64,000 nucleotides of DNA. Origin: Cytophagales bacterium. Lineage in GTDB: Bacteria; Bacteroidota; Bacteroidia; Cytophagales; Spirosomataceae. This document shows positions 45,443 to 51,486 of this stretch, piece after piece. Each line of letters starts with the position of its first letter. The stretch's first letter is position 1. The position numbers were made by a program, and so were the translations under genes. Where the stretch lies: positions 1-64,000 of the forward strand of contig JAAFJP010000013.1 of the NCBI GenBank assembly GCA_013298125.1. The letters run 5' to 3'. The notes under the pieces are model-generated. The model did no database searches, had not been told where the DNA came from, and saw nothing but the letters and a program-made list of their open reading frames with translations.

Positions 45443-46450
45443 TTATGAAAACCACTCCAAAGCCCTTTTCTCAGACCACAAAACCCCTTGATAATCAACA
45501 GGATAAAAACCACAATGTCCGCCCATTTCGGGGGCTTGGAAATAGATTTTTTCCATAGATTTTATCTTCTCAAAAGGGAAACATTCCTTCGAGAGAAAAG
45601 GGTCATTTTTTGCGTTGATGATTAAAGTTGGGATATTAATTTTATCCAAAAAGTACAGCGAACTGTTACGCTCGTAGTAATCTTCGGCATCTATAAATCC
45701 ATGTAGTTGTGAAGTATATGCATCATCGAAATCTTTTAATGTTTTGATATTCGGGATGTATGAAGTGTTAAGCTGAAACTCTGGGAAACGTTGAGATTTC
45801 TCCAAAATCTTTTTATTCAATGAACGACAAAACCGTTTGGTATAAAGCCAGCCAATCGTTTTGCCACTACTTGAAAGGTGCAAAGGTACTGAAAAAGTGA
45901 CTGCCTTCTGAATTTCTGGATAAAGATTTTGCCCTTTTTCTCCTAAGTATTTCAAGGTTAAATTACCCCCAAGGCTAAACCCGACTAAGTATATTTTTTG
46001 ATAACCTTTTGATAATGAATGCTTTATGATAGTTTCTAAATCATCCGTTGCTCCGCTGTGATAGAATTTTTTGGTCTGATTCATTTCACCAGAACAACTC
46101 CTAAAATTCCAAGCCAAACAATCAAAACCGTGAGCGTTGAAGTTTTTGACCATGCCCGTAATGTACTGGCGTGAGGTATCGCCTTCGAGTCCGTGGGAAA
46201 GAATGACAATAGCCCCCTCCGCCCCCAGTGGGAGAACTTTCTTGTCAGATTTATAATCCGTTTTTGACTCCCCCTCTGGGGGGTGGGGGGCTATATCCAA
46301 ATCAAGAAAATCTCCATCTGGTGTGCTGATTCTTTCACGTACGTAATTTACGCCTGTTACTTTACGAAAAACAGAGGGAAAAATCGTTTGTGAATGACCT
46401 TCGGGCAACCAAGAAGGTGCTTGATAATCAGCGTTTTGGATTAATGGCAT
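45443..46450 (-). CDS. YheT-family alpha/beta hydrolase with in-frame palindromic insert
   Basis: A 335-residue cytoplasmic hydrolase of the YheT/ABHD1-3 group. Family features: ADYQAPSWLPEGHSQTIFPS at the start, ILSHGLEGDTSRQY (oxyanion region), WNFRSCSG, the nucleophile elbow GFSLGGNLTLKY, and the late AKNDPFLS Asp and GGHCGF His. Residues about 54-80 (HPPEGESKTDYK to LPLGAEGA) are not part of the family; they are encoded by a C/G-rich palindromic element (46211-46292) placed between DLDI and IVILSHG, in a surface loop. The substrate is unknown (relatives act on lipid esters). Confidence 0.88.
   Translation of the reverse strand: MPLIQNADYQAPSWLPEGHSQTIFPSVFRKVTGVNYVRERISTPDGDFLDLDIAPHPPEGESKTDYKSDKKVLPLGAEGAIVILSHGLEGDTSRQYITGMVKNFNAHGFDCLAWNFRSCSGEMNQTKKFYHSGATDDLETIIKHSLSKGYQKIYLVGFSLGGNLTLKYLGEKGQNLYPEIQKAVTFSVPLHLSSSGKTIGWLYTKRFCRSLNKKILEKSQRFPEFQLNTSYIPNIKTLKDFDDAYTSQLHGFIDAEDYYERNSSLYFLDKINIPTLIINAKNDPFLSKECFPFEKIKSMEKIYFQAPEMGGHCGFYPVDYQGVLWSEKRALEWFS
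46211..46292. repeat. In-frame palindromic element, copy A (inside yheT-like gene)
   Basis: Arms AGCCCCCTCCGCCCCCAGTG... (46211-46234) and CTCCCCCTCTGGGGGG... (46268-46292) are imperfect complements, separated by 33 bases. The same element with the same order of motifs occurs in the CRTAC1-like gene at 48988-49065. Here it encodes 27 residues ending LPLGAEGA. Confidence 0.75.
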
Positions 46451-47871: not shown

Positions 47872-50800
47872 CTATAAGATTCTTTTATTTCCTTGATAAT
47901 CAATTACTTCTGCCGATTTTATCATCGGCGAAAGCAATATACTCCTTGATGATTGGGATAAAAATGAAGTCCCGTAACCCACTTCTACTTTACGAGTTTT
48001 TCCATTTTTTAATTTTTCAAAAACAATAGCATCGTTGGTTTGCAATGCCTTAGTTTTTAAGTCTTTCAATCCCCTATATGTTCTCAATTCAGCCTTATTC
48101 TGACTTGCCATTATCATTGGATTTCCAAAAGAATTTGTTACTCTAACTAAGCCTTTGGCATCTCCTTTTACACAGAAAGCACTTTCAGAAAGGGTTTGTG
48201 GTTTGAATTTCCCATTGCCATCACCTTTTAACAATAAACCATTAAAAGCATCCAAACGCCCTACTGAAACCTCATTCCCAAAATCATTACCCACCATCAA
48301 TACATCAAGGTTTCCGTCTATGTCAAAATCTTCTACTAACATTCCATTAATTGGAGCAGTTTGGGCTTGTGTTGGTAAGGCTGAGATTTTAAACTTTCCT
48401 CCTCCCAAATTTTCTATATAACTGGTTTTTAGATAATTGGCTTTTAGAATAATTGCGTCTTTCAGTTCTTCGGCAGATAAAAAATCGCTTACAGTTGCAT
48501 TGGCAAGTTTTTTATAATTATCAAATTTCCTGCGAGTAGTGTTCATTTGTTTTGATAAATCATCTCGCCCATTGAAAGTAACTTCTTTGCGTTTTCCAGA
48601 AGCATCTTGATAGAATACCGTTGGGATGGCATCATAAATTCCGTCTGTATTAAAATCTTTTCCATAAATACTTATCGGGTACTCGTCTGAGGCTCTGTGG
48701 AGATTATTTTCACCCACATTGCCTGCGATGTAATCCATATCCCCATCATTATCAAAATCTCCCGCCGAAAGGCTATTCCAAATACCTTTTTGTTGATTAA
48801 GCTCTTGATTGTCAATTATTTTTAGCGATTTTCCATTGCTATTTTTTAATAACGTAATGGGCATCCACTCACCCGCAAGCATCAAATCTTGCCAACCGTC
48901 ATTGTCATAATCCGTCCAAAGGGCATCGCAAACTAAGCCTATATTTTTGAGATTTGGAGCAAATTGTTGAGTAACATCCGTAAATTTAGCCCCTCCCGCC
49001 CCCAGAGGGGGAGCTTTCGAGTCCAATTTTGTTGAAATTCTCCCTCTGGGGGTTAGGGGGCGGCTATCATTCCTCAAAATATAGCTACTCACAGGCTTCG
49101 GGTAGGCATTCACCTCCACACGCCCACCCACGAAGAGGTCGAGGTCGCCGTCGTGGTCAAAATCGGTTGCTTTTACACACGAACCACTTTTCAAAAATTG
49201 CGGTAAAGCATCTTTCTTTTGTTTGAAATGCCCTTTTCCATCATTTTCATAAAACCTATCTTGATACTCTGGTGAGTCTTTGGGTAATTCATTACTTCCG
49301 CCCACAATGTACAAATCAAGGTCATTGTCGAGGTCAGCATCGAAGAGCAAAACGCCCATGTCTTCGGCTAATTTTTTATCGTTCGTTTCATTCAAAATTA
49401 GGTCAGACTTCACAAATTTTCCCACTTTATTCTGTAATAAAAAAGTTCCTTTATGATATGCTGAACCACCCACAAAAACATCTTCTAAACCATCACCATT
49501 CACATCACCTACCGCAAGTGAAGGACCAGATTGAGAGAATTTATGAGGTATCAATTTTTGAACATTATAATCAATCGCATCTGTTTCTTGATGAATGTAA
49601 TTTATTGATAATGAATCTGTTACATCTTTTAAAATTGGAAATTGGTTATTGGTCATTGGAAATTGGTTATTACTAACAGCCAATCTTTCATCAATTATCA
49701 ATACTTGATTTACTGGAATATCTTTTAAGATTTGGGACTTTCCACTTTGCCAAGTTACTTTTACTTCATCTATTTTATTTGTTTTTCCGAGTCCAAAATG
49801 AGCAATATTTTCGATGGTTGATAGATATCCACGATAAGGCGTGTTTTCATAGATTTGCTTTTGTCCGTTATCGTAAGAAATCTCAATAAAAGCCCCAATT
49901 CCGTTGATATTATTTTGTAAACCATTCAGTTTTACACGTAAATAATTACTTTCTTCTGGTTTCAGTTGGATGGAATTATTGCGATAAACAGAGGCAGAAT
50001 CGTTGATATTATTGACAACATAATCCAAATCTCCATCATTGTCTAAATCAGCATAGGCAGCCCCATTCGAGAAACTGGGCTGATTCATACCCCAATCTTT
50101 GGTAACATTCTCAAAGTTCAAGCCCCCCTTATTTTTAAAAGCAAAATTTGAAATTTTAACTGAGGGAATAAAATCTAATTGCATTATTGTACTCATCAAA
50201 TTAGAAACTTCCGCCCGATAAGCCACAAAATCTTGGTCAGTAATATCCCTCGGAAATCCATTAGTGATAATGATGTCTCTGAAACCATCGTTGTCAAAAT
50301 CCGTTACCATCGGAGTCCAACTCCAATCGGTTTCGGCAATGCCAGCCAATAAGCCCACTTCACTAAAAACGGGTTTGCCCGTAACAGGATTCACCCCTTG
50401 GTTTACTTGTAAAGTATTTCGGGGATATTGGTAGGCATAATGGTATTGTTCATTATTTTGGTAGGTTAGATAGTTATTGGCAGAAATCATCATTTTTTTA
50501 CGATAATTATCGGCTGGCATCATGTCCACCGCCAAAATATCCACCAGCCCATCGTTATTCAAATCTTCGACTTCGTTACCCATCGCTGAATAAGATGTAT
50601 GTTTGAGATAGTCAGCAGCTTGGTCTGTGAATGTACCATTTTTATTATTGATATAAAGTAAATCATTGGTCAAATAATCGTTGGTAACATAAATATCCTT
50701 CCATCCATCACGGTTAATATCGGTAATATTTACGCCCAAACCATAACCTTCAATCAAGATTCCTGCCTCTTTACTGACATCCGTAAAAACGGGATGATTA

Positions 50801-51486
50801 AGCGTCTTAGAAAAATCGTTTCTGTATAATCTATCCGTTCGTTTGGAAGAACCATCCACAATTTTATCGTGGTATTTGTTCGGAAAACGGCTATCATCCA
50901 TCTCATTCACGAGTACGTAAAGGTCTAAATCTCCATCATTATCATAGTCAAAAAATACGGAGTTAGTCGTATGAGTAGTGTCCGCAACGCCATATTCTTG
51001 AGCCATTTCCTTAAAAATAGGCACACCGTCCTTTCCAGCACCTTGATTGACATACAATAGGTTAGCACGCTCAGAAGCCACTTTTTTGACAGTAGCACTC
51101 ACATAAATATCCAATAATTTATCGTTGTTAATGTCCACCAAAGCCACACCCGAACACCATTTCCCTTTAGCTTCTACGTTGGCTTTTTGAGAGACATCTG
51201 TAAATTTGAAATCTCCTTTATTAAGATACAGCTTATTATCTACTTGATTCCCAGTAAAATAAACATCCACTAAATTATCATTATTAAAATCTCCCAAAGC
51301 TACCCCACCCCCATTGTGTACATACTCGAATGTGAGGACGTTCATGGTATCGTGTTCTGTGATTCCGTTTGAAAAAGTAATATTAGTTTCTTCGACGGGG
51401 AGTTTTGTGAAAACCTTATCATTTCCACACGAATATAGAAATAGAGAAGAAATGAATGATAAAAATGGCAAAAATTTAGTAGTCAT
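47872..51486 (-). CDS. FG-GAP/VCBS and ASPIC/UnbV (CRTAC1-like) lipoprotein
   Basis: A 1204-residue outer-membrane or surface lipoprotein (lipobox Cys20, FLYSCGN). It is made of many FG-GAP/VCBS repeats forming beta-propeller blades, with calcium-binding runs such as VDINNDKLLDIYV, DFDNDGFRDI, DLDNDGDLDYVV and DFDNDGDMDYI, and an ASPIC/UnbV-like segment near 520-600 (NGIGAFIEISYDNGQK, VTWQSGKSQI). Two stretches are foreign to the family: NNQFPM...QFPIL at 606-619, coded by exactly six heptamers, and RPLTPRGRISTK...PPLGAGGA at about 808-833, coded by a palindromic element. It is encoded downstream of SusC/SusD, as such proteins often are, and probably binds or holds glycan or peptide at the surface. 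Confidence 0.9.
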   Translation of the reverse strand: MTTKFLPFLSFISSLFLYSCGNDKVFTKLPVEETNITFSNGITEHDTMNVLTFEYVHNGGGVALGDFNNDNLVDVYFTGNQVDNKLYLNKGDFKFTDVSQKANVEAKGKWCSGVALVDINNDKLLDIYVSATVKKVASERANLLYVNQGAGKDGVPIFKEMAQEYGVADTTHTTNSVFFDYDNDGDLDLYVLVNEMDDSRFPNKYHDKIVDGSSKRTDRLYRNDFSKTLNHPVFTDVSKEAGILIEGYGLGVNITDINRDGWKDIYVTNDYLTNDLLYINNKNGTFTDQAADYLKHTSYSAMGNEVEDLNNDGLVDILAVDMMPADNYRKKMMISANNYLTYQNNEQYHYAYQYPRNTLQVNQGVNPVTGKPVFSEVGLLAGIAETDWSWTPMVTDFDNDGFRDIIITNGFPRDITDQDFVAYRAEVSNLMSTIMQLDFIPSVKISNFAFKNKGGLNFENVTKDWGMNQPSFSNGAAYADLDNDGDLDYVVNNINDSASVYRNNSIQLKPEESNYLRVKLNGLQNNINGIGAFIEISYDNGQKQIYENTPYRGYLSTIENIAHFGLGKTNKIDEVKVTWQSGKSQILKDIPVNQVLIIDERLAVSNNQFPMTNNQFPILKDVTDSLSINYIHQETDAIDYNVQKLIPHKFSQSGPSLAVGDVNGDGLEDVFVGGSAYHKGTFLLQNKVGKFVKSDLILNETNDKKLAEDMGVLLFDADLDNDLDLYIVGGSNELPKDSPEYQDRFYENDGKGHFKQKKDALPQFLKSGSCVKATDFDHDGDLDLFVGGRVEVNAYPKPVSSYILRNDSRPLTPRGRISTKLDSKAPPLGAGGAKFTDVTQQFAPNLKNIGLVCDALWTDYDNDGWQDLMLAGEWMPITLLKNSNGKSLKIIDNQELNQQKGIWNSLSAGDFDNDGDMDYIAGNVGENNLHRASDEYPISIYGKDFNTDGIYDAIPTVFYQDASGKRKEVTFNGRDDLSKQMNTTRRKFDNYKKLANATVSDFLSAEELKDAIILKANYLKTSYIENLGGGKFKISALPTQAQTAPINGMLVEDFDIDGNLDVLMVGNDFGNEVSVGRLDAFNGLLLKGDGNGKFKPQTLSESAFCVKGDAKGLVRVTNSFGNPMIMASQNKAELRTYRGLKDLKTKALQTNDAIVFEKLKNGKTRKVEVGYGTSFLSQSSRSILLSPMIKSAEVIDYQGNKRIL
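48988..49065. repeat. In-frame palindromic element, copy B (inside CRTAC1-like gene)
   Basis: Arms AGCCCCTCCCGCCCCCAGAG... (48988-49013) and CTCCCTCTGGGGGTTAGG... (49040-49065) with a 26-base centre; 78 bp in all, a multiple of three. It encodes SRPLTPRGRI...SKAPPLGAGGA and shares the terminal PLGAxGA reading with copy A. Confidence 0.8.
49630..49671. repeat. Heptamer array inside a coding sequence
   Basis: On the minus strand: AATAACC, AATTTCC, AATGACC, AATAACC, AATTTCC, AATTTTA; six units of seven bases, 42 bp, read in frame as 14 residues (NNQFPMTNNQFPIL). Confidence 0.8.

Follow-up and report, generated by a model that had tools for sequence, protein, structure and literature searches.

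The closest described systems are Rickettsia palindromic elements (RPEs) and repeats of the REP type. In the parts of the sources on which this comparison draws, RPEs form several palindromic families inserted within the reading frames of unrelated genes, where each family encodes a conserved peptide, and nearly half of them are in ORFs (PMC10969869), with a CGTC end tag reported for the RPEs of R. conorii (PMC3733652). REPINs are described there as two inverted REP-like units with a variable centre, found in extragenic space and associated with RAYT genes (PMC3116915). REPs tagged with GTAG/CGTC are mostly intergenic according to the sections consulted, but some are intragenic, often as dimers encoding 20-30 aa, including copies in uvrA and tRNA synthetase genes (PMC3733652). 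For subclass 2.4 tnpA-REP genes of Cyanobacteria and Bacteroidetes, the relevant passages describe in-frame GT[AG]G-tagged REPs in a peripheral extension of the transposase and mention REP insertions in unrelated genes as reported (PMC6006769).

Here we describe a palindromic element of a Cytophagales bacterium that lies in frame in many unrelated genes; the papers listed in searches of the open-access PMC literature, the sole literature searched, include no report of this family. What is new here is that the genic copies differ from the intergenic ones, with longer phase-fitting arms, a preferred frame and Asp/Ser/Lys-rich centres.

The element in the CRTAC1-like gene and its family in the genome

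The window, that is, the whole stretch of 64,000 nucleotides analysed, holds two copies of the element (Table 1). The sequence-only reading had seen copy B as a 78-bp palindrome with a 26-nt centre, in frame and adding ~26 residues, and our results confirm this: the 14-nt core arms are 93% complementary at a spacing of 26 nt, and 0 of 200 dinucleotide shuffles folded as well as 48980-49075 of the - strand, taken as single-stranded DNA (z -3.27). The two arms named in that reading are real, but the palindrome is longer, since the outer C/G-run segments pair too and the 14-nt arms are the core alone. Read in frame on the - strand of the 1204-aa ORF, the copy B peptide is SRPLTPRGRISTKLDSKAPPLGAGGA. 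The composition had been called foreign; the unit is indeed GC-rich against a window of ~37% GC, but the word is doubtful for a unit that belongs to a multi-copy repeat family of its own genome. The second copy, seen earlier in an unrelated gene 2.8 kb away, is also real and lies in frame in a hydrolase ORF. Within the window alone, arm cores with up to 3 mismatches number 5 against a mean of 1.47, a modest excess reached by 2 of 100 shuffles, and the genome-wide count is therefore the decisive evidence.

Table 1. Coordinates of the two copies in the window and of the ORFs that contain them
Feature	Positions	Strand	Remark
Copy B, palindromic element AGCC...GGCT	48988..49065	-	78 bp = 26 codons of the CRTAC1-like ORF
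Copy B, arm core CCCCCAGAGGGGGA	48999..49012	+	
Copy B, second arm core TCTCCCTCTGGGGG (1 mismatch)	49039..49052	-	
Copy B, centre, 26 nt	49013..49038	-	codes hydrophilic residues (ISTKLDSK region)
Copy B, host ORF, 1204 aa, FG-GAP_3 / UnbV_ASPIC (CRTAC1-like)	47872..51486	-	domain matches
Copy A, 82 bp, read IAPHPPEGESKTDYKSDKKVLPLGAEGA	46211..46292	-	second copy, in frame
Copy A, arm core (2 mismatches)	46222..46235	+	
Copy A, arm core (exact)	46269..46282	-	
Copy A, host ORF, 335 aa, alpha/beta hydrolase (Abhydrolase_1)	45443..46450	-	

The expectation of further copies, in and out of genes, was borne out when the search was extended to the whole 5.85-Mb genome (G000), whose genus we infer to be Arcicella. 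The core CCCCCAGAGGGGGA occurs there 98 times with at most 1 mismatch, and a reversed-pattern control 0 times. A covariance model (CM) built from 24 copies gave 128 matches at E<=0.1, both strands counted. The set of 52 copies examined consists of the 51 CM matches that reach 50 bits on one strand or both, plus C45:26384, which was recognised from its arms. Left out were C22:12560 (one arm), C14:96980 and C18:28740 (single arms), C2:37536 (other palindrome family) and C64:8692 (34 bits), and many of the weaker CM sites outside the set (~44 bits or less) are probably other hairpins. A copy was counted as internal when the open frame running across it had 150 aa or more and extended at least 15 aa beyond the element on either side; accordingly, 35 of the 52 copies are internal and in frame (36 by the rule, minus one antisense case), and 17 are not. 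C34:214092 was rejected as a genic copy: its ORF is antisense and has no NCBIfam match, and the element lies 6 nt upstream of a LutB-like gene.

The hosts named by NCBIfam/Pfam include leuS (two gene copies), valS, pheT, uvrA, argC, murD and nirB, together with methylmalonyl-CoA mutase, pbpC, lnt and a D-Ala-D-Ala-ligase-like protein; NCBIfam, run on 30 proteins, gave no match for L208, L212, L231 and the spurious ORF L241:2560-3258. At L214:1249-3402 the element stands between GT4-like and GT2-like glycosyltransferase domains in one open frame, as if fusing two genes. All 17 non-internal copies overlap an ORF (>=70 aa) or are within 18 nt of one, and 15 of them are placed between co-directional ORFs, so most of them are probably transcribed; at least 5 contain the start codon and 4 the stop codon of the neighbouring ORF. 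The window is ~86% ORF by simple count, and the family therefore does not shun genes.

Fit of the genic copies to translation

Each unit pairs two REP-like arms in inverted orientation, AGCCCCC-(TAA- or TCCG-like spacer)-CCCCC-xyz-GGGGGA, on either side of a variable centre. The insert adds ~20 to 35 amino acids to the host protein, and the recurrent peptide of the listed copies is (S or xA)P..P(R/K/D/E)GG ... PPxGxxGx or SPxGG... All three reading frames occur among genic copies, with one strongly preferred: in the own genome and three others (G004, G013, G014), 54 of 66 scorable genic copies have their 5' arm in the PRGG frame (p 7e-16 vs 1/3, this and the following p-values being optimistic because the copies share ancestry), and 43 of 62 have their 3' arm in the PPLG frame. 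Long arms, in which the core comes 1 nt later, make up 45/90 of the genic and 5/48 of the intergenic arms of G000 and G004 (p 2e-6), and long arms with a G-ending spacer 42/90 and 1/48, respectively (p 5e-9), 6 copies at ORF starts being left out of these counts. Arm length goes together with codon phase, in that 24 of 25 long 5' arms begin at phase 2 compared with 6 of 20 short ones (14/20 elsewhere; p 3e-6), and G013 repeats the pattern (long 5/5, short 2/16; p 0.001); by definition a genic copy has no in-frame stop, a rule that alone bars certain arm/phase combinations, so part of this fit follows from the class. The six short 5' arms at phase 2 are all free of TAA in this frame. The class definition does not account for the choice of PRGG over other open frames. 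The genic centres of G000 and G004 (435 residues) are rich in Ser (17%), Asp (9%), Lys (9%), Asn (8%) and Glu (7%), and shifting the frame lowers their Asp to 0.2% in one direction and 1.4% in the other.

At the level of the arms themselves, the three-base arm loops match within a copy in 64 of 81 scorable cases; shuffling within genomes gave 46 on average and 57 at most. Core mismatches at codon positions 1, 2 and 3 amount to 3.1, 3.7 and 5.1% in the genic copies of G000, to 7.3, 7.1 and 7.5% in G013 and to 7.7, 12.0 and 4.1% in G004, with no consistent excess of change at silent positions across these three genomes. Since silent positions are not clearly freer, these values suggest that the copying is recent or that the hairpin is constrained, and not protein-level selection on the arms alone. 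The earlier explanation, that the palindrome is tolerated because one frame has no stop, is not adequate, as all three frames occur and one is preferred; it also falls short of the phase-matched arm variants, stop-free spacers and protein-like centres of the genic copies.

Occupied loops in homologues and related genomes

The insert of the CRTAC1-like protein is missing in 12 of 12 aligned homologues, whose variable loop is much shorter, and close relatives of this gene are present in all 7 congeners searched. The hydrolase insert is missing in 9 of 9 aligned homologues, in which the loop is very variable in length and sequence. The insert peptides are thus no general property of the orthologues, as had been anticipated. 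AlphaFold models of moderate quality (mean pLDDT 63 for the CRTAC1-like C-terminal fragment 47875-49632, in which the insert is residues 191-216, and 67 for the hydrolase) place both inserts between two strands, mainly as coil, and most of each insert has pLDDT <50; the position in loops that had been raised earlier is supported to the extent that both models put the insert in a low-confidence one. Sequence alignments to the best PDB match of argC, murD, valS and methylmalonyl-CoA mutase products were gapped or poorly aligned over the insert.

The same sites are variously filled in congeners. The element is missing at the loci of the ABC transporter gene (C33:22924) in 7/7 congeners. Among five congeners with a comparable pbpC locus, G004 has an element variant at the same site, the loop of G002 holds another palindrome, CTCACCCC...GGGGTGAG, and three carry neither palindrome. 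In L311 and L314 the pbpC loop is coded by the simple repeat CACAACTCACAACTCACAATTC, which suggests that other repeats, too, occupy these loops. Six congeners lack the LeuS inserts of sites 293 and 540 (G004 gave no LeuS match at threshold) and 5 lack that of site 665, G006 not being alignable there; the alignable congeners have native sequence or other repeats at these sites. The two leuS genes of the genome, L211 (C2) and L213 (C3), code for ~96% identical proteins that have the site-665 insert in common and differ in the others. At site 540 the C2 gene copy and G007 hold a different palindrome, CACCCCTCTC...GGGGTGAGG, and at site 293 (L334, L335) the loop of G007 is built of CCCCTAACCCCCAACCCCTAACCCC, another C-rich repeat, G005 being similar. 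In DNA-level alignments the insert takes the place of some native loop residues and is not a clean addition, which counts against the explanation preferred below, because simple insertion does not predict such replacement.

Beyond the own genome, CM matches at E<=1e-5 are distributed patchily over 32 of 194 genomes of the order (own included) in ten families, although a CM match alone does not show that the family is the same, and G026 has a related but distinct form. In this genome, which belongs to another family, 6/6 copies examined are internal and measure 99 or 111 bp. These copies, in six ORFs (L384-L389), represent the related coding palindrome and mostly read SPPKSP.RGDF...KVPP.GGFRGA. 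Internal in-frame copies number 10/23 in G004 and 3/4 in G014, where all matches at E<=1e-5 were counted, and 21/22 in G013, 6/17 in G083 and 14/16 in G103, where the counts are of copies fetched and not of every match; the five genomes pooled give 54 of 82 fetched copies. The less genic G004 and G083 count against a gene-adapted reading. Members of the family are found in G013, of another genus, in LeuS at all three loops filled in G000 (that at site 540 being the 44.5-bit match C142:39422) and in ValS at the same loop, and three further sites are common to G000 and G004. Shared sites have different arm loops or centres, and the occurrence of native or unrelated loops in intervening congeners speaks for recurrent insertion, with vertical inheritance and loss as a less probable alternative. 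The core CCCCCAGAGGGGGA..TCCCCCTCTGGGGG occurs with different outer arms at many Caulobacter and some Hydrogenophaga/Ramlibacter loci among the matches listed (L035-L114), a likeness that may reflect shared origin or convergence.

Probable movement, rival explanations and comparison with known systems

The explanation that we favour, at a probability of roughly 0.7, is that these are non-autonomous, probably mobile short palindromes adapted to living in translated DNA. New copies would arise by copying into new sites; those that break a protein would be lost, those that add a flexible P/G-rich loop would survive, and surviving genic copies could seed further ones, leading to a gene-adapted sub-population. 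We infer the movement of the family, since there is no clear target duplication and no linked transposase. The mobile palindrome of the sequence-only reading accordingly stands as to being multi-copy, in frame and absent from orthologues, but its movement has been deduced and not seen. Hairpin arms without clear target duplication fit single-strand (HUH-type) or template-switch movement better than a DDE transposase, and a route of the former kinds would be preferred here. No direct repeat of at least 4 nt was found in 106 flank pairs; in these pairs 3-nt direct matches number 6 against 2.1 expected (p 0.01, weak), and inverted flanks have a weak excess at 1-2 nt and nothing beyond. By eye, the 98 arms listed are either solitary or in tight +/- pairs, with no gene-sized +/- pair (a contig gap could hide one), and a plasmid search with the insert peptide gave no match. 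It is conceivable, though we hold this only tentatively, that the family is a selfish repeat with coding sequence as its main habitat, having two arm lengths for codon phases, a hydrophilic centre and safe loops of essential enzymes that are recolonised, such as the three LeuS loops in two genera. Competition among mobile palindromes would then be the main driver of hypervariable loop evolution in these bacteria.

A population of REPINs that a host RAYT/TnpA-REP (Y1) transposase mobilises, and that lands in genes by chance, would account for the inverted arm doublets with hairpins and for the lack of clear target-site duplication, and Y1_Tnp genes are present in 34 of 39 genomes, with 5 matches in the own genome. 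We nevertheless consider it unlikely, because no element match at E<=0.1 lay within ~1.5 kb in 24 Y1_Tnp loci (the own genome's full set of 5, plus 19 from the many that relatives have), the best sub-threshold matches having E 0.28 and 0.69, both at L288, while R1 matches are found in 15 of the 39 genomes (E<=0.01, some few and weak) against Y1 in 34. Moreover, most copies are genic, and the ends show no enrichment of GTAG, with 17/104 in the own genome against 13.2 expected from base frequencies, the AG being constant, and 7/46, 1/44 and 0/8 in G004, G013 and G014. One own Y1 gene (L030:1020-2180) has arrays of a different REP, GTCGCCCCGATGGGGC, on both sides in a REPtron-like layout, which also speaks against this transposase serving the element. 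In L229, L257 and L364, one end is GGTCGCCC (or its complement) instead of AGCCCCC, like the end of a Y1-linked REP; such copies are a possible hint of a Y1 link.

Ancient inserts that do not move, but passed down vertically, disappeared from most lineages and were kept alike by gene conversion, could explain the LeuS and ValS loops filled in two genera, the three further G000/G004 sites and the site-665 insert common to both leuS copies, but they are improbable given that congeners have native loop sequences in common at these sites, that shared sites differ in arm loops or centres, and that matches range within one genus from 0 (G006) to 52 (both strands, G004). An RNA-level element, in which an mRNA hairpin acts as a terminator, pausing or stability signal under selection on expression, draws on the placement of the non-internal copies beside and between co-directional ORFs; internal copies in the middle of housekeeping genes, aligned orthologues that do without the element and an Rfam search of the window without a match make it quite improbable. 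Convergent low-complexity P/G-rich linkers selected for protein function, with the palindrome as a by-product, would predict the S/D/K-rich loop centres and the strongly preferred frame, yet the unit also lies between genes, all three frames occur, silent core positions are about as conserved as others and arm loops co-vary, so that this origin is hardly credible.

Compared with known systems, the element works like RPEs and REPINs, but the defining features of both that were tested (tags, extragenic location, transposase link) were not found. It differs from a MITE in the lack of a target-site duplication of 4 nt or more in the flank pairs. It resembles REPINs and REPs as an inverted doublet of palindromic units with a variable spacer, but differs from them in being mostly genic here (35/52, and 21/22 in G013, though 10/23 in G004 and 6/17 in G083), in the lack of enrichment of a GTAG-type guide tetranucleotide at the hairpin foot and in the lack of a RAYT link at the Y1_Tnp loci examined. 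Like intragenic REPs it has copies inside ORFs, including uvrA and tRNA synthetase genes, but unlike GTAG/CGTC-tagged ones it has no tag in its consensus and a genic majority in G000, G013 and G103, not in G004 and G083. The insertions of subclass 2.4 tnpA-REP genes are likewise in-frame palindromes, but those are described for the transposase gene itself and are GT[AG]G-tagged.

The parallel with Rickettsia drawn in the sequence-only reading, here compared by description, holds for behaviour, an in-frame palindrome in many unrelated genes with a conserved encoded peptide, but not for the CGTC tag: the element consensus ends in AGCCCC and GGGGCT, and 4 of 101 copies have CGTC at ~10 nt or less from an end. 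Unlike RPEs, the hosts are Cytophagales (Arcicella and other genera, by presumptive names) and not Rickettsia, the internal share is 35/52 here and 21/22 in G013, arm variants fit the codon phase, and genic copies differ from intergenic ones. The family offers a source of loop insertions in essential enzymes that can be put to the test, and culturable strains with recent insertions, if there are any, would make it possible to study the mechanism of movement. In-frame palindromes were already known from Rickettsia and from some REPs; this family brings in another phylum, with dozens of copies in this bacterium and some relatives, mostly genic in several genomes, and with signs of adaptation to translation.
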